From: Phycisphaerales bacterium
Lineage (GTDB): Bacteria; Planctomycetota; Phycisphaerae; Phycisphaerales; UBA1924
Direction: 5' to 3'
Length of the DNA: 64,000 nucleotides
NCBI GenBank assembly: GCA_020853815.1
Contig: JADYYE010000118.1
Location: 1 to 64,000, forward strand
Position 1 is the stretch's first letter. Each line of letters begins with the position of its first letter. The position numbers and the translations under genes were made by a program. The notes beneath the pieces are model-generated. The model did no database searches. It saw only the letters and a list, made by a program, of their open reading frames with translations, and was not told the origin of the DNA. Positions 36,578 to 43,994 of the stretch are shown here, piece after piece.

Positions 36578-37054
36578 TCACGCCACCGCGGACTTTCGAT
36601 TCGGCGTTGAAGCGATGTCCGCCAATTGGGCGGGCTTGGCGATCTTCATGAGCGCGCCAGCCTCGTGCCGCGGGCCGATGTCGAACAGCCCGTCCTCGAC
36701 CGATGCGCCGGGCTCGATGACGATCGAGGGCGCCAGCAGCGAGCCGCGCCACGTCGCGCCCGCCGCCAGGAAGACCGGGCCGGATTGGACGTACTTGGCG
36801 TGGAGTCGGCCGAGCACTTCGATGCCGCCGGCGGCGATGACGACGCCGGCCATCAGCCACCCGCGCGGCGCGACGAGGATCTTGCCGCAGGTCTCGACGG
36901 AGTTGGCGTGGTGGTTCCCGCGGACGATGACGTCTTCGATGTGGACGCGCTGGTAGCAGTGGGGGCAGGTGAGGACGATGGCGCGGGCGCTGGCGACGAA
37001 CGGCGCCTGGCACCGGTAGCAGCGGACGGATCGCTGGCTCCTGATGGTGAACAT
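36578..37054 (-). CDS. Bactofilin-like protein with N-terminal zinc ribbon
   Basis: A 158-residue protein. CYRCQAPF (CxxC) and CPHCYQR (CxxC) within the first 35 residues form a zinc ribbon. The rest is a repetitive beta-strand domain of bactofilin type: DVIVRGNHHANSVETCGKI, then short hydrophobic strands every ~18 residues (IEVLGRL, GPVFLAAGA, SIVIEPGA). It starts 31 nt after the neighbouring bactofilin gene and is probably in the same operon. A polymer-forming scaffold with a metal-binding head is the likely picture. The zinc ribbon is unusual for this fold. Confidence 0.7.
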   Translation of the reverse strand: MFTIRSQRSVRCYRCQAPFVASARAIVLTCPHCYQRVHIEDVIVRGNHHANSVETCGKILVAPRGWLMAGVVIAAGGIEVLGRLHAKYVQSGPVFLAAGATWRGSLLAPSIVIEPGASVEDGLFDIGPRHEAGALMKIAKPAQLADIASTPNRKSAVA

Positions 37055-37085: not shown

Positions 37086-37631
37086 TTACTCCGCCGCCGA
37101 CTCCACGGTGCGCGGCTTGGAGATGCCCGCGAGCTTGGCCTCGAGGCCCGCGAACGCCGCCGCCAGGCCGTCTGTCGCCGCGGGGGTCGCGTGCGGCACG
37201 TTGGAGGACGGGGTCGTGGTCGGGGTCGAGCCCGGACGCGGCTGGGGTGGGGTGACGGTGCGGGTGCGCTGGGCGGCCTCGGCCTCGATGCGCTTGGCGG
37301 CGTCGGCGCCGACGCGGCAATGCCCGGTGAAGGAAGCGCCCTCGGACACGACCAGCGTCATCGCGGTGATGTCGCCGACCACGCGGGCCTTGGCGTTCAA
37401 CTGCACCTTTTCCTTGGCCGTGATGTTGCCCTCGACCACGCCGTCGACCAGCACGCGGCCGGCGTCGATGGTGGCCTTGCAGGCGGCGCCGTCGCCGATG
37501 GTGACCTCGCCCTTGGAGGAGACCTTGCCCTCGACGCGCCCCATGATCCGCGCCGAGTTCTCAAAGGTCAGCTCGCCCTTGAGGGTGGTGTCGGGGCCGA
37601 TGATCGTGGTCTGGTTGGTCGGCTCGGGCAT
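37086..37631 (-). CDS. Bactofilin
   Basis: A 181-residue polymer-forming cytoskeletal protein. After a short tail the beta-helix core runs TTIIGPDTTLKGELTFEN, GRVEGKVSSKGEVTIGD, GVVEGNITAKEKVQLN, VVGDITAMTLVVSEG: about seven regular turns. The C-terminal tail is Pro/Thr-rich and disordered and ends in VESAAE. Bactofilins form membrane-linked filaments involved in cell shape or division. The start at 37631 is chosen because it immediately precedes the conserved N-terminus, and the longer open frame upstream is intergenic. First gene of a two-gene bactofilin unit. Confidence 0.9.
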   Translation of the reverse strand: MPEPTNQTTIIGPDTTLKGELTFENSARIMGRVEGKVSSKGEVTIGDGAACKATIDAGRVLVDGVVEGNITAKEKVQLNAKARVVGDITAMTLVVSEGASFTGHCRVGADAAKRIEAEAAQRTRTVTPPQPRPGSTPTTTPSSNVPHATPAATDGLAAAFAGLEAKLAGISKPRTVESAAE

Positions 37632-37950
37632 GGTGTCCTCTCTTTGCTGTCGGCGGGCCGCGGCGAGTCCGCGGCCGTGGCTTGTGCGGGGCAGGGTACG
37701 CAGCCGCGACAACGCGGCGTTGTTCCCCGCCCACGCGGGAGTTCTGGTGCTGTCGGATCGACCAGGCCACCCGGCGGGCGTGAATTTTGGCGCCGGCACG
37801 CGGCGGGGGGCACTTGGGAATGGGGCACGGGCGATCGGTCATGGAGTATGGACCGGATGGTGGATGACCCGACGAACGAAGCTCGGGGCCAATGGGCTAC
37901 GGCTCCGACGCGGCATTCCCGGCCCAACCGCGTTCCCCCTAGCATTCTGG
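37632..37950. other. Divergent region, bactofilins / amidoligase cassette
   Basis: 319 nt between divergent genes. No repeats beyond a GGGAATGGGGCAC heptamer-like stretch at about 37808-37830. Promoters for both directions presumably lie here, but I see no clear -10/-35 pair. Confidence 0.5.
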
Positions 37951-38886
37951 ATGCCGACGGAGCTGGAGCTTGAGATCCTGCCGCAGCCCGACGACTTCAC
38001 GTGCGGGCCGACGTGCCTCCATGCCGTCTACCGCTACTTCGGTGACCATGTCGAGCTCGACGACGTGATCTTCGGGATTCAGCGGCTTGAGAATCAGGGC
38101 ACGCTGGCGGTGTATCTCGCGAGCCACGCGCTCAAGCGCGGCTATCGCGCGACGATCTACACCTACAACCTGCAGCTCTTTGATCCGACGTGGTTCCAGA
38201 CCCCGGACGTGGACATCGCGGCCAAACTGCGGGCCCAGGCCGAGCACGTGCCCAAGGTGCGCGTCCGCGAGGGAAGCCAGGCCTACCTGGAGTTCCTTGA
38301 ACTTGGCGGCAAGCTGGTCTTCAAGGACTTGACCTCGAAGCTCGTCGCCGACCTGCTCCGCACGGGCACGCCCGTGCTGACGGGGCTCTCGGCAACCTAT
38401 CTCTACCGCACCGCCCGAGAGTTCGGGCCCAGCGACGAGTACGACGACGTTCGCGGCAAGCCCTCGGGGCACTTCGTCGTGCTCTGCGGGTATCGCCCGA
38501 GCACGCGCAAGATCACCATTGCCGATCCGATGTTCCCGAACCCGCGCTTTCCGGCGCTAAAGTACGACATCTCGATCGACCGCGTGCTGTGCTCGGTGCT
38601 GCTGGGCATCCTGACCTACGACGCGAACCTGCTGGTGATCGAGCCCGGGCCGGAGCAGGCGCGGCTTGCGGACCAGGCCCATCGGAACGGCGTTGCACCG
38701 GAGAACACGAAGCCGACCAAGCGGTCACGCGCCGCGCGGGCTCCATCCAGGCCGGGCCAGTCCGCCGCAGTCGCGCCACGCAAGAATCCCAGCAAGAAGA
38801 AGTCCGCCCGCACCGCACCCCGTGCCTCCGCACGAGCGCGATCGAGCCCACGCACAGGCTCGCGCCCACGCAAGGCGACAAGCTGA
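37951..38886 (+). CDS. C39-like (papain-fold) cysteine peptidase, first gene of the amidoligase cassette
   Basis: A 311-residue protein. QPDDFTCGPTCLHAVYRYFG carries Gln12 (oxyanion hole) and Cys18 (nucleophile). His174 sits in KPSGHFVVLCGY and Asp192 in TIADP, so a full C-H-D triad is present. The domain ends near residue 245. The last ~65 residues are a Lys/Arg/Ala/Pro/Ser-rich basic tail of low complexity. It overlaps the next gene by one base (TGATG) and forms a unit with RimK-like and GCS2-like ligases. The peptidase may cut or transfer the product those ligases make, and the basic tail could be a binding or acceptor region. The triad is seen directly; the role is inferred. Confidence 0.8.
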   Translation: MPTELELEILPQPDDFTCGPTCLHAVYRYFGDHVELDDVIFGIQRLENQGTLAVYLASHALKRGYRATIYTYNLQLFDPTWFQTPDVDIAAKLRAQAEHVPKVRVREGSQAYLEFLELGGKLVFKDLTSKLVADLLRTGTPVLTGLSATYLYRTAREFGPSDEYDDVRGKPSGHFVVLCGYRPSTRKITIADPMFPNPRFPALKYDISIDRVLCSVLLGILTYDANLLVIEPGPEQARLADQAHRNGVAPENTKPTKRSRAARAPSRPGQSAAVAPRKNPSKKKSARTAPRASARARSSPRTGSRPRKATS

Positions 38887-40340
38887 TGTCAAACGTCATC
38901 GTTGTTGACAATCCGAAGGACTGGCCGCTGCACATCCACGGCGTGACGGTCGTCTCCGCGCGCGGCTATCTGACCGAGCCGCGTTTCACCGACCTGCGGG
39001 CCGCCCGGGTCTTCAATCTGTGCAAGTCGTACAGCTATCAGTCGCTCGGCTACTACGTGTCGCTGCTGGCGTCGGCCCGCGGGCACAAGCCGCTCCCCGA
39101 CATCACGACGATCCAGGACCTGAAGCTCTCGACCATGCTGCGCATCGCGGAGCACGAGCTTGAAGAGCTGATCGCCGAGAGCCTGTCCGACCTGAAGCCC
39201 GGCACGTTTCTGCTCTCGATCTATTTCGGGCGGAACATGGCCAAGCGCCACGAGCGCCTGGCGCTGGCGCTCTTCAATCTGTTCCCCGCGCCGCTCTTGC
39301 GAGCCGAGTTCCGCCACGACGGCGAGACATGGGAGCTCCGCAGCCTTCGCCCGATCGAGGCCGACGAAATCCCCAAGGAACACCTGCCGTTCGTGGGCGA
39401 GAGCGCGAAGGCGTATTTCACGCGACCCGCCCGCCGCGCCCGCAAGGTCGACACGCGCCACGACCTGGCGATCCTGTTCAACGAGAGCGAGCCCAACCCG
39501 CCCTCGGACAGGAAGGCGCTCAAGAAGTTCATCAAGGCCGCGGAGTCGATGGGGATCGACACCGAGATCATCACCAAGGACGAGTACGGGCGGGTGGCGG
39601 AGTTTGACGCGCTCTTCCTTCGTGACACGACGTCGGTGAACCACTACACGTTCCGGTTCTCGCGCCGGGCCCAGGCCGAAGGACTGGTCGTGATCGATGA
39701 CCCGGATTCGATCGTGAAGTGCGCCAACAAGGTGTATTTGGCGGAACTCCTGCACCGCCATCGCGTGCCGCACCCGCGCACGCTCATCATCCACCGCGGC
39801 AACTGCGACGATGCGCCGAAGCAGCTCGGTTTTCCGCTGGTGCTGAAGCAGCCCGACAGCTCGTTCTCGCTTGGTGTCGTGAAGATCAACACCCTGAAGG
39901 AATACCAGGACGAGCTGGACAAGCTCTTCCCCGTTTCGGACCTCCTGATCGCGCAGGAGTTCGTGCCCACCAGCTTTGACTGGCGCGTCGGCATCATCGA
40001 GCGCCAGCCCCTGTACGTCTGCCAGTACTTCATGGCCGAGAAACACTGGCAGATCTACGACCACACCAAGACCGGGCTGGACAAGGTCGGGAACTTCGAG
40101 GCCTGGCCCGTCGACGCCGCGCCCCCCGACGTGGTGCGCACCGCGATCCGCGCCGCGAACCTGATCGGCGACGGGCTGTACGGCGTGGACCTCAAGGAGA
40201 TCAACGGCAAGCCCGTCATCGTCGAGATCAACGACAACCCCTCCATCGAGACCGGCGTTGAGGACCAGATCCTCGGCGACGAGCTCTACCGGCGCGTCAT
40301 GCGCGTCTTCCTCCGCCGATTGGAGTCCCGCGGCTCATGA
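38886..40340 (+). CDS. RimK-like ATP-grasp ligase with RLAN-type N-domain
   Basis: A 484-residue protein. An N-terminal domain of about 170 residues (starts SNVIVVDNPKDWPLHI; contains ARVFNLCKSYSYQSLGYYVS) corresponds to the RimK-like ATP-grasp N-terminal domain. The ATP-grasp part has the flexible-loop strands GFPLVLKQPDSSFSLGVV, the hinge LLIAQEFV and the Mg-binding strand KPVIVEINDNPS with Glu and Asn. ATP-grasp enzymes of this group add amino acids to an acceptor carboxylate through an acylphosphate. Start and stop overlap both neighbours (1 nt and 4 nt), so the three genes are translated together. Confidence 0.88.
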   Translation: MSNVIVVDNPKDWPLHIHGVTVVSARGYLTEPRFTDLRAARVFNLCKSYSYQSLGYYVSLLASARGHKPLPDITTIQDLKLSTMLRIAEHELEELIAESLSDLKPGTFLLSIYFGRNMAKRHERLALALFNLFPAPLLRAEFRHDGETWELRSLRPIEADEIPKEHLPFVGESAKAYFTRPARRARKVDTRHDLAILFNESEPNPPSDRKALKKFIKAAESMGIDTEIITKDEYGRVAEFDALFLRDTTSVNHYTFRFSRRAQAEGLVVIDDPDSIVKCANKVYLAELLHRHRVPHPRTLIIHRGNCDDAPKQLGFPLVLKQPDSSFSLGVVKINTLKEYQDELDKLFPVSDLLIAQEFVPTSFDWRVGIIERQPLYVCQYFMAEKHWQIYDHTKTGLDKVGNFEAWPVDAAPPDVVRTAIRAANLIGDGLYGVDLKEINGKPVIVEINDNPSIETGVEDQILGDELYRRVMRVFLRRLESRGS

Positions 40341-41644
40341 GTTCTCATCACGATCCACTCCTGGAATCCAACCCCGAGGCCCCGCGACCGTTCGCGCTCT
40401 TCGAGGCGTTCGGCGTCGAGTGCGAGTACATGATCGTCGACGCCGCCACGCTCGATATCCGCCCCGTCGCCGACAAGCTCCTGCTCGAAGCCGCCACGCT
40501 CCCCGGCGCCGAGCCTTATTTCGAGAGCGGCACGGCGGTCCCGACCGAGGTTGGCCTGGGCCCGGTGTCGTGGAGCAACGAGCTCTGCGCCCACGTGATC
40601 GAGCTGAAGACCGCGGCGCCCGCGTCGTCGCTCGACCACGTCGCCGACTCGTTCCAGGACAGCGTCGCGCTGGCCAACGCCATGCTGGCGCCCATGCGCT
40701 GCGTGCTGCTGCCCGCGGGCATGCACCCGTGGATGAACCCCGATCGGGAGATGAAGCTCTGGCCCCACGGCTTCAACGAGATCTATGCCGCGTTCGATCG
40801 CATCTTCAATTGCAAGGGGCACGGCTGGTGCAACCTGCAGTCGACGCACCTGAATCTGCCGTTCCAGGGCGACGACGAGTTCGCGCGCTTGCACGCCGCG
40901 ATCCGGGCGTTGCTGCCCATCATGCCCGCGCTGGCCGCCAGCTCGCCGCTCATCGACGGCGCGACCTCGCGCAGCCTCGACAACCGCATGGCGGTGTATG
41001 CGCGCAACGCGCGGACGATCGCGAGCGTCGCGGGCGATGTCATCCCCGAGCCCGTGTGGAGCCAGGGCGAGTACCAGCGCGTCATCCTCGACCGCATCTA
41101 CGCGGACCTCAAGCCCCACGACCCGCAGGGAATCCTGGCCCACGAGTGGTGCAATTCGCGCGGCTGCATCGCGCGGTTCTCCCGCAGCGCCATCGAGGTA
41201 CGCGTGCTCGACGTGCAGGAATGTCCCGCGGCCGACCTGGCGATCCTGAAGCTGGTGAGCGCCGTGCTCAAGTGGCTCTCGGAGAAGCGTTCGCCGCACC
41301 AGGCGTCGCTCCGGGCGCTGCCCACATCGAGGCTGCGCGCGATCCTCGACCTGACCATCGACGGCGCGGATACGGCCATCATCTCCGACGCGTCGTACCT
41401 GGCCGCCCTTGGCCTGACCCCCACGCCCACGCCGGCGCTGCGCCTGTGGCAGGCGCTGGCGGAGCGAGCGGGCGCGGTGTTCGACCAGGAAACCCGCGAG
41501 ATTCTCGGCGTGATCTTCCGCGAGGGATCGCTGGCAACTCGCATCCGACGACGACTGGGCGATCGCACCGACCTGCGGGCGTTGCAGTCGATCTATGCGG
41601 AGCTTGCCCGCTGCCTGGCGTCCGGGAAGTTGTTCAGGGCGTGA
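40337..41644 (+). CDS. GCS2-family carboxylate-amine ligase (YbdK-like)
   Basis: A 435-residue member of the glutamate-cysteine ligase family 2, part of the glutamine-synthetase-like superfamily. FEAFGVECEYMIVD holds the conserved Glu pair, followed by ELCAHVIELKT for metal binding, LLPAGMHPWMNP, and a distal RFSRSAIEVRVLDVQECP. These are the expected ATP/metal and substrate sites. GCS2 proteins join an amine to a glutamate-type carboxylate; some make gamma-glutamyl-cysteine, but many have unknown products. It overlaps the RimK gene by ATGA and is the last gene of the cassette. It converges on the DUF4287 gene 13 nt away. Confidence 0.88.
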   Translation: MSSHHDPLLESNPEAPRPFALFEAFGVECEYMIVDAATLDIRPVADKLLLEAATLPGAEPYFESGTAVPTEVGLGPVSWSNELCAHVIELKTAAPASSLDHVADSFQDSVALANAMLAPMRCVLLPAGMHPWMNPDREMKLWPHGFNEIYAAFDRIFNCKGHGWCNLQSTHLNLPFQGDDEFARLHAAIRALLPIMPALAASSPLIDGATSRSLDNRMAVYARNARTIASVAGDVIPEPVWSQGEYQRVILDRIYADLKPHDPQGILAHEWCNSRGCIARFSRSAIEVRVLDVQECPAADLAILKLVSAVLKWLSEKRSPHQASLRALPTSRLRAILDLTIDGADTAIISDASYLAALGLTPTPTPALRLWQALAERAGAVFDQETREILGVIFREGSLATRIRRRLGDRTDLRALQSIYAELARCLASGKLFRA

Positions 41645-41657
41645 GTTTGCCGCGAGC

Positions 41658-42407
41658 TCACGGCGACAGCAACGCCTTCAACGCCTCAACCGCGCGGGTC
41701 CAGAACGCCCGCAGGCGCTCCACGTCCGCCGCGGAGGGCAGCTTGTTGTGCTGCACCGCGACCTGGCAGCGGGCGTCGCCCTTGGCGTAGATGTTGACTT
41801 CGACGCTGGTCGCCCGGGGCTCCGCGGGGAGCCCTTCGCCCGCGTTCCATGTGATCCGCAGCGACTTTGGCGCGGTGGCCTTGCGGATCGTAATCCAGGC
41901 GCCCGCGAGCCAGCGCGATCGCACCAGTTCATCGTTCCACGCCTCGAACACGCGCGCGGCGCTCGCCTCGATCGTGCGGCTCACACTCACGGAAAATCCG
42001 TCGGTCTTCTGGTGCTTCTGGCGGAGGCCCCGCGCCTGCTCATAGCCCACGACGATCATCTGTGACCACCAGTCGCCGACCTTATGCTCACGCGAAAGAA
42101 ACTCCGCCGCGGCCTTGTGCCCGTGCTCCTTCACGTCGAACGCGTCGAGGACCGAGAGCCAGTGGTCCCAGCCGAAGCCGGTCGCCTTCTGCACCGCGTC
42201 GCTGCTGACGCCGCCGGCGCGGGCCGAGGGGGGCGCGGGCTTGATCTCTCGGCGGCCGCTGGCGTGGCGACGCGCGGGAGCTGGGGCGTTCGACCGGACC
42301 GTGCGTTTCTTGGCGACGCGCTTTTTCTTGGGCGTGGGCGAACTCTTGGCCGCGGGCTTGGTGACCCGAGGCTTGCGCCGACCCGGATTGTGCTTGCGTG
42401 CCGCCAT
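41658..42407 (-). CDS. DUF4287 plus SRPBCC/AHSA1-like protein
   Basis: A 249-residue protein. A basic N-terminal tail of about 75 residues (Lys/Arg/Pro-rich, AlaSer stretches) is followed by a DUF4287-type helical segment (ATGFGWDHWLSVLDAFDV ... VGDWWSQMIVVGYEQARGL) and then an SRPBCC-like ligand-binding domain (SVSRTIEASAARVFEAWND; SLRITWNAGE). The same two-domain order is common in bacteria, but its ligand is not known. The ATG at 42407 gives a sensible N-terminus, and TAGACT lies about 16 nt upstream. Confidence 0.8.
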   Translation of the reverse strand: MAARKHNPGRRKPRVTKPAAKSSPTPKKKRVAKKRTVRSNAPAPARRHASGRREIKPAPPSARAGGVSSDAVQKATGFGWDHWLSVLDAFDVKEHGHKAAAEFLSREHKVGDWWSQMIVVGYEQARGLRQKHQKTDGFSVSVSRTIEASAARVFEAWNDELVRSRWLAGAWITIRKATAPKSLRITWNAGEGLPAEPRATSVEVNIYAKGDARCQVAVQHNKLPSAADVERLRAFWTRAVEALKALLSP

Positions 42408-42509
42408 GATGAACCCCCACAAGAGTCTACGGTGCCGCGCTCGCGGTGTCGCCGCGGCACGAGCCAGCGGCTCACAAGCCGTCGCGTGGACCGCGCGCGG
42501 GCGCGCCCG

Positions 42510-42515
42510 TACCAT
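42510..42515 (+). promoter_or_regulatory. Putative -10 hexamer of a leaderless promoter (mqnC)
   Basis: TACCAT, 6 nt before the ATG at 42522. It favours that ATG over the next in-frame one at 42561. Confidence 0.4.
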
Positions 42516-42521
42516 CTCCCA

Positions 42522-43994
42522 ATGCTTTCAGGAACCTCTGAAAGCACTCCAGGACCCTTCATGAACACACTCCCCGCCGGCACACCCCGCGAGTATCCGA
42601 ACCTCGACGCGCTCGACCACGCCCTGCTCCGCGCCGTCGTCGCGGGCGAGGCCCGCCTGACCAGCGAGCAGGCGCTCGAGCTCTTCAACCGCATGCCGTT
42701 TCACGAGCTGGGGCGCTGGGCCGACGCGCGCTGCCGCGAGCTGCACGGGGATTCGATCCGCACCTACATCATCGACCGCAACATCAACTACACCAATGTC
42801 TGCAACGCCCGCTGCACCTTCTGCGCTTTTCGGCGCGACGCGGGCGACGCCGACGCGTATGTGCTTCCCAAGGAGACGATCCACGAGAAGATCGCCGAGC
42901 TGGCGGCGATCGGCGGCACGCAGATCCTGATGCAGGGCGGCATGAACCCCGACCTGCCGCTCGACTACTACCTCGACCTGCTCGGCTCGATCCGCGAGAA
43001 GTTCCCCGCGATCCATGTCCACGCCTTCAGCCCGCCGGAGATGATCGAGTTCGTCCACTTCTTCAACCCGCCGGGCGCGACGCTCTTTGACAAGTGCCGC
43101 TGGGTGCTCACCAAGCTCCGCGATGCGGGGCTGCACAGCCTGCCGGGCGGCGGCGGGGAGATCTTCGCGGCGCCGGTGCGGCGCAAGATCGGCCTGGGCA
43201 AGTGCGACGCCGAGGCGTGGCTCACCGTGATGTACGCCGCCCATTCGCTCGGGATGTTTACGAGCGCCACGATGATGTTCGGGCACATCGAGGGGTACGC
43301 CGATCGCGTCCACCACATGTGGCTGGTGCGCGAGTGGCAGGACAAGGCGTTGCGAGTTTCGGAGAGCGAGGCCGATCACTTCGGGCATTACAAGGCCTTC
43401 ATCGCGTGGCCTTTCCAGCGTGAGAACACGCCGCTGGGGCGTGTGAAGCACTGGGGCGCGGAACCGGCGGAGCTTGCTTGTGAGTTTCCGGGCGACGTGG
43501 TCGCGCGTGGCTTCGCGTGGGGCGCGAACCCGGAGGTGGACTACCGCGAGCTCGGCCCGGATGCCGCCGAGTTCGGGCGTCGCGTGCGCATGAGCGGCTC
43601 TTCGGACTACCTGCGCACCCAGGCGCTCTCGCGTCTCTTCCTCGACAACATCTACTCGATCGGGGCTTCGTGGGTCACGATGGGCCCACACGTCGGGCAG
43701 ATGGGCCTGGCCTTCGGCGCCAGCGACATGGGCAGCGTGATGATGGAGGAGAATGTCGTGTCAAGCGCGGGCACGACGTACTGCCTCGACGAGGCCGTCC
43801 TCTGCCGATTGATCCGTGAATCGGGTTTCGTGCCCGCACAGCGCAACAACACCTACGACGTGCTGCGTGTCCACGACGGTCCGTCGTCGCCCGATCGCCT
43901 CGTCACCGACTGGTCCACCCACCGCGCCAAGCGCACGCATCAGGAAGCGCCGCGCCAGTCCAGGGCGAGCGTGACGATCAGCGCGACCACATGA
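42522..43994 (+). CDS. mqnC: Cyclic dehypoxanthinylfutalosine synthase-type radical SAM enzyme
   Basis: A 490-residue radical SAM protein of the futalosine (alternative menaquinone) pathway. IIDRNINYTNVCNARCTFCAF carries the CxxxCxxC cluster at Cys94, Cys98 and Cys101. GGTQILMQGGMNP, HAFSPPEMI, SLPGGGGEI and TATMMFGH-like (SATMMFGHIEG) segments match MqnC better than MqnE, which is the main alternative. A disordered tail of ~40 residues follows. Menaquinone would feed the complex I encoded at the left end of the window. No other mqn gene is seen here. Confidence 0.88.
   Translation: MLSGTSESTPGPFMNTLPAGTPREYPNLDALDHALLRAVVAGEARLTSEQALELFNRMPFHELGRWADARCRELHGDSIRTYIIDRNINYTNVCNARCTFCAFRRDAGDADAYVLPKETIHEKIAELAAIGGTQILMQGGMNPDLPLDYYLDLLGSIREKFPAIHVHAFSPPEMIEFVHFFNPPGATLFDKCRWVLTKLRDAGLHSLPGGGGEIFAAPVRRKIGLGKCDAEAWLTVMYAAHSLGMFTSATMMFGHIEGYADRVHHMWLVREWQDKALRVSESEADHFGHYKAFIAWPFQRENTPLGRVKHWGAEPAELACEFPGDVVARGFAWGANPEVDYRELGPDAAEFGRRVRMSGSSDYLRTQALSRLFLDNIYSIGASWVTMGPHVGQMGLAFGASDMGSVMMEENVVSSAGTTYCLDEAVLCRLIRESGFVPAQRNNTYDVLRVHDGPSSPDRLVTDWSTHRAKRTHQEAPRQSRASVTISATT

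Follow-up and report, generated by a model that had tools for sequence, protein, structure and literature searches.

Three adjacent genes on the + strand of a Phycisphaerales (Planctomycetota) genome, located within a 64,000-nucleotide stretch of contig JADYYE010000118.1 (referred to as the window), encode a cysteine peptidase (PEP), an RLAN-RimK ligase, and a GCS2 ligase in this order. Gene 1 (positions 37951–38886) codes for a C39-type papain-like cysteine peptidase of 311 residues, predicted to be cytoplasmic and assigned from its open reading frame (ORF), Pfam matches, and an AlphaFold model; gene 2 (38886–40340) codes for an ATP-grasp ligase of 484 residues containing the Pfam domains RLAN and RimK; and gene 3 (40337–41644) codes for a divergent GCS2 carboxylate-amine ligase of 435 residues, assigned from its Pfam match and structure model. 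The stop codon of gene 1 (TGA, 38884–38886) shares 1 nucleotide with the start codon of gene 2 (ATG, 38886–38888), and the ATG of gene 3 at 40337 lies ahead of the TGA of gene 2 (40338–40340), giving an overlap of 4 nucleotides. The coordinates, reading frames, and both overlaps given in an earlier annotation, made from the DNA letters without database searches (the sequence-only reading), were all reproduced.

The same gene order recurs among distant bacteria. Peptidase, RimK, and GCS2 genes follow each other on one strand in 34 of the 40 relatives' loci around an RLAN gene, and in a scan of named genomes (one for each of 84,980 species; at least 583 relatives, of which the best 80 were examined) the ordered trio was present at 68 of the 80 best-matching loci, in 16 named phyla. 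Because of this recurrence, chance is excluded, and the trio is a real co-inherited unit, in agreement with the conserved order and co-inheritance that the sequence-only reading had proposed to look for. The first junction (PEP/RimK) is 30 nucleotides or shorter in 93 of 102 trios, and the second (RimK/GCS2) in 85, with a 4-nucleotide overlap in 48. Among 121 relatives, a strong GCS2 match was found in 39, every one of which also has RLAN, and the peptidase likewise in 39, 38 of them with RLAN and with all three genes; the lone exception is an orphan peptidase without RLAN. Over 294 genomes across the phylum, tallied by hand, full-strength RLAN, strong GCS2, and strong peptidase matches were counted in 64, 57, and 51 genomes, respectively, and all three in about 49, as compared with ~2 expected under independence. 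Furthermore, pairwise distance matrices of the three proteins correlate with r of 0.62–0.78, versus at most 0.18 in 999 shuffles. Rows of the RimK tree are mostly grouped by phylum, and the discordant ones may reflect transfer or mis-binning. Since the trio is patchy inside the window genome's own family, it is commonly lost or transferred as a whole. Cultured carriers include Blastopirellula marina, Thiobacillus thioparus, Nitrosomonas communis, and Rufibacter.

The peptidase shows Pfam matches to Peptidase_C39_2 (E-value, 5e-8), Peptidase_C39 (8e-5), and Guanylate_cyc_2 (5e-4), and a weak match to PF09778, related to C39/DUF3335-like peptidases. The complete triad recognized in the sequence-only reading is well founded, as Cys18 (codon 38002–38004, motif DDFTCGPTC), His174 (38470–38472, SGHFVV), and Asp192 (38524–38526, IADPMF), all on the + strand, are kept in 99%, 100%, and 100% of 106 relatives, respectively. 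In the AlphaFold model, the core has a predicted local distance difference test score (pLDDT) above 90, and the best folds in the PDB are the C39 domains of PCAT1 and ComA; a weaker match is Alr0975, a primitive phytochelatin synthase in its glutathione-bound form (Foldseek E-value, 8e-4; ~12% identity), and a Pfam scan with E-values up to 1 reported no phytochelatin match. Apparent in-frame TGA or TAG codons were encountered in some peptidase matches of the phylum survey; in the two loci that were read (L161 and L164), the match falls within a single open ORF, which fits ordinary terminal stops.

The resemblance to PCAT1 and ComA brings in the maturation of a ribosomal peptide, in which the C39 peptidase, a family of double-glycine leader peptidases, would cut a leader and the ATP-grasp ligase would crosslink the core in a graspetide-like manner. 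We regard this explanation as highly improbable. The window peptidase stands alone, with neither a fused ABC transporter nor, at 103 non-redundant loci, a recurring ABC exporter in the neighbourhood, and no recurring small ORF was found near the operon among those of at least 40 residues, the size range covered, which tells against a nearby ribosomal precursor of that size. To our knowledge, GCS2 is not an enzyme of ribosomally synthesized and post-translationally modified peptides, and its presence speaks against such a pathway; so does the leader peptidase itself, which graspetide loci do not typically encode (PMC8939145).

Residues 235–311 of the peptidase (38653–38883, + strand) constitute a tail rich in Lys, Arg, Ala, and Pro, with 27% Lys plus Arg, that is predicted to be disordered. 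The sequence-only reading was right about its basic nature and short in its length, as 77 residues, not ~65, follow residue 234. That reading had further offered the tail as an acceptor modified by the ligases or as a binding region, a proposal that the comparison with relatives does not bear out. The tail has a median length of 9 residues among the 106 relatives and reaches 40 residues or more in only 7; its identity between members of the genus is 26–71% versus 89–97% for the core; the pLDDT is about 50 over most of its length; and an unrelated neighbouring protein encoded at 41658–42515 carries a basic extension of similar composition. The tail is thus essentially genus-specific and a conserved acceptor role is excluded by the missing conservation, disorder, and fast divergence, and any binding role may be limited to the genus.

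Gene 2 matches the Pfam family RLAN (PF14401, 38961–39395, + strand) with an E-value of 1e-44 (152 bits against a cut-off of 25) and the RimK-type ATP-grasp family (PF08443, 39726–40253, + strand) with 5e-7, so that the full-length RimK-like ligase with an N-terminal domain described from the sequence can now be specified as an RLAN-RimK protein. Glu446, Asn448, and Asn450 of the ATP-grasp motif E-x-N-x-N-P are invariant. The protein stays below the cut-offs of the RimK families (TIGR00768, 66.4 versus 143.4 bits; the S6 ligase PRK10446, 28 versus 331 bits), and another RimK-family gene, above the cut-off, is present elsewhere in the genome. As a separate observation, in one planctomycete family (L167, 4195–6476, and also L166) the RLAN and ATP-grasp domains are encoded by separate neighbouring genes, which in L167 are followed by a GNAT gene.

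Gene 3 matches the Pfam family GCS2 with an E-value of 3e-30. Glu28, Glu30, Glu82, Glu89, and Asn173 are invariant in a 76-row alignment, and His171 shows 99% conservation in a separate comparison; together with the matched GCS2 fold, the four glutamates bear out the metal-binding acidic residues that had been expected. The model (pLDDT, 94) is nearest in fold to YbdK and plant glutamate-cysteine ligase (PDB ID: 2gwc), at 14–16% identity; the Pup ligase PafA and the depupylase Dop appear among its weaker fold matches. With 43.9 bits against 176.4, the protein remains under the NCBIfam cut-off for YbdK; none of the three proteins reaches any NCBIfam cut-off, and profile searches show GCS2 and the peptidase at the same distance as the structure comparisons do. 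Neither ligase shows the clustering with characterized glutathione or S6 enzymes that would have refuted the sequence-only reading. The absence of a glutathione synthase, noticed for the window in the sequence-only reading, extends to the whole genome (94% complete), in which no GshB-type gene (PF02955) was found.

The RimK-like ATP-grasp domain and the weak PafA/Dop matches of GCS2 raise the question of protein tagging, in which RLAN-RimK would add amino acids to a host protein, GCS2 would prime or cap the chain, and the C39 peptidase would remove it. A precedent is provided by RimK and the protease RimB, which make and remove S6 polyglutamate (PMC12239564; PMC11957791). Tagging is nevertheless unlikely in our estimation: no conserved acceptor gene occurs within 4.5 kb at the 103 loci, the basic tail is not conserved, the RimK cut-offs are missed by far, and the transporter coupling and GshF-like fusion described below suggest a small molecule.

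In five genomes, RLAN-RimK and GCS2 are joined in one open frame of 974–1022 codons, with all three Pfam domains present in each of the three fusions scanned. Because the four fusion lineages are only 50–58% identical to one another, the sequences indicate that the fusion is not one assembly error. The 7 ATP-grasp and 11 GCS2 residues checked are kept in the fusions, save one Asp-to-Glu replacement in L163. In one of these genomes (G235), the peptidase gene overlaps the fused ligase gene by 4 nucleotides, and a gene for N-formylglutamate amidohydrolase (FGase) comes next. The occurrence of the two ligases in one chain implies that both ligation steps act on one substrate, and strengthens the interpretation as a peptide-making system.

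FGase (PF05013; E-value, 3e-24) is encoded just 3′ of GCS2 on the same strand at 35 of the 103 loci, in many phyla, and its Glu12, His13, His123, and His127 (L125 numbering) are invariant. An extra C-terminal domain is found in some, HD in L119 (8705–9967) and NUDIX in L097 (5478–6731). A transporter of the major facilitator superfamily (MFS) is coupled to the trio in six planctomycete loci. The three genes form a coupled cassette, as had been described, which is not the complete unit everywhere, since FGase and sometimes MFS join it elsewhere. Within 4.5 kb of the 103 loci, no further recurring family was found that points to an acceptor or precursor.

The combination of two hydrolases with two ligases could also serve the utilization of an amine or peptide, resembling the Puu pathway for putrescine, in which the ligases would either γ-glutamylate an amine or assemble a carrier peptide for catabolism, to be hydrolyzed afterwards by the peptidase and FGase, the substrate possibly being imported by MFS. 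Relatives of FGase in the HutG family act in histidine catabolism; the HutG match obtained here is only weak. We consider such a role quite improbable, because no oxidoreductase, aminotransferase, or other catabolic gene recurs in the flanks of the 103 loci, and two ligations would cost two ATP, which is unusual in catabolism.

Altogether, the view of the trio as a coupled cassette in which a peptidase accompanies two ligases that form amide bonds, with its substrate left open, already taken from the sequence, is upheld by the conserved order and the position of the ligases outside characterized groups. With moderate confidence, we read the system as a cytoplasmic pathway to a small non-ribosomal peptide-like metabolite, built by two ATP-dependent ligations and then processed, because the ligases occur fused, FGase and MFS join them, and the folds resemble γ-Glu-Cys ligases and Alr0975. 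ATP-grasp and COOH-NH2 ligases that are linked in operons frequently carry out successive ligations in the synthesis of metabolites (PMC4431377). In this pathway, GCS2 would convert a carboxylate, probably the γ-carboxylate of glutamate or a similar acid, to an acyl phosphate and couple it to an amine, and the RLAN-RimK ATP-grasp enzyme would activate a second carboxylate and add another amino acid or amine; either ligation could come first, the order given here being presumed rather than fixed. The C39 peptidase, through an acyl-enzyme at Cys18, may then trim the product, transfer its acyl part, or recycle it, and FGase, where present, would take off an N-acyl group or a terminal residue, with MFS exporting or importing the product. 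It is doubtful, though conceivable, that the product is a new low-molecular-weight γ-glutamyl compound, such as a metallophore, a thiol, or a compatible solute, common to at least 16 phyla and made by GshF-like ligases together with a papain-like enzyme dedicated to its processing.

Several points weigh against a small-metabolite pathway. The closest solved folds of the peptidase cleave double-glycine leader peptides, not small peptides, and the substrates, step order, and direction of the peptidase reaction are inferred, whereas the unit, its co-inheritance, the catalytic residues, and the fusion are observed. Solo RLAN-RimK genes without an adjoining peptidase or GCS2 exist at six loci, so that RLAN-RimK can function with no partner gene beside it. 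The genome of the window has no FGase, which is thus not essential, and the coupling of MFS is confined to the six loci mentioned and absent in the window.

Upstream of the trio lie bactofilin-type genes on the − strand (36578–37054 and 37086–37799), a bactofilin gene standing beside one whose protein mixes weak bactofilin-like and zinc-ribbon matches. Downstream, an AHSA1-type gene on the − strand is followed by a gene for an MqnC-like radical SAM protein (42519–43994), whose match to TIGR03699 comes in two separate stretches and, with 398 of 428 bits, falls just under the cut-off, which suggests an insertion after residue ~308. Scanning for promoters and terminators gave no signal beyond that of shuffled sequences, and an Rfam search gave no match. 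An anti-phage defence system was dropped as a candidate since the PADLOC models gave no match at an E-value of 0.01, and a phage origin was rejected, the sole PHROG match being a weak one to an S6-modification family.

RLAN-RimK beside a papain-like peptidase is an already known, computationally described kind of neighbourhood. Iyer et al. in 2009 reportedly delineated amidoligase neighbourhoods in which RLAN-RimK accompanies a fusion of GNAT and a DUF3335 (C39-like) peptidase, and a review traces DUF3335-GNAT fusions to that study (PMC10318531). In the Azospirillum locus L157, such a GNAT-DUF3335 peptidase gene lies directly upstream of RLAN-RimK and overlaps it. Both forms share RLAN fused to the RimK ATP-grasp domain and the adjoining papain-like peptidase, whereas the role of second amide-forming enzyme falls to a GNAT domain fused to the peptidase in the described form and to a separate GCS2, elsewhere often with FGase, in the present one; the window peptidase has no GNAT domain by Pfam, and the GCS2 gene is present instead. 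No experimental study of the GNAT or GCS2/FGase form was found in the open-licence literature, which does not prove that none exists; the GCS2/FGase form is a variant for which no published biochemistry was found. A pathway of three or four enzymes, distributed across many phyla and with no published product found, is a good candidate for the source of an undiscovered common metabolite, and the cultured carriers and the natural two-ligase fusion, a compact biochemical target, make the question directly testable.

Among characterized systems, YbdK and plant glutamate-cysteine ligase share with GCS2 the fold (target TM-score of at most 0.78) and the ExE metal motif, and differ from it by the low identity and bit score given above. 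Alr0975 has the papain-like fold, and its Cys acyl-enzyme acts on a γ-Glu peptide, but its identity to the peptidase is low and it is not the best fold match. The operon for the osmolyte NAGGN (asnO-ngg-aminopeptidase) is likewise small and combines amide-forming enzymes with a peptidase to yield a dipeptide product (PMC8070244); its enzymes are of the GNAT/ligase and asparagine-synthase types, its peptidase is an aminopeptidase, and it has no GCS2, RLAN, or C39. In GshF, a GCS-type and an ATP-grasp ligase likewise act one after the other within a single polypeptide, similar to the five fusions, but the domain order is opposite and GshF has its own ATP-grasp in place of RLAN-RimK; in addition, the window ligases are separate genes, the trio adds a peptidase, and GshF structures are only 12–14% identical to the window GCS2. 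By analogy, the nearest logic would be that of GshF followed by a papain-like γ-Glu peptidase or transpeptidase, presumably leading to a different product.

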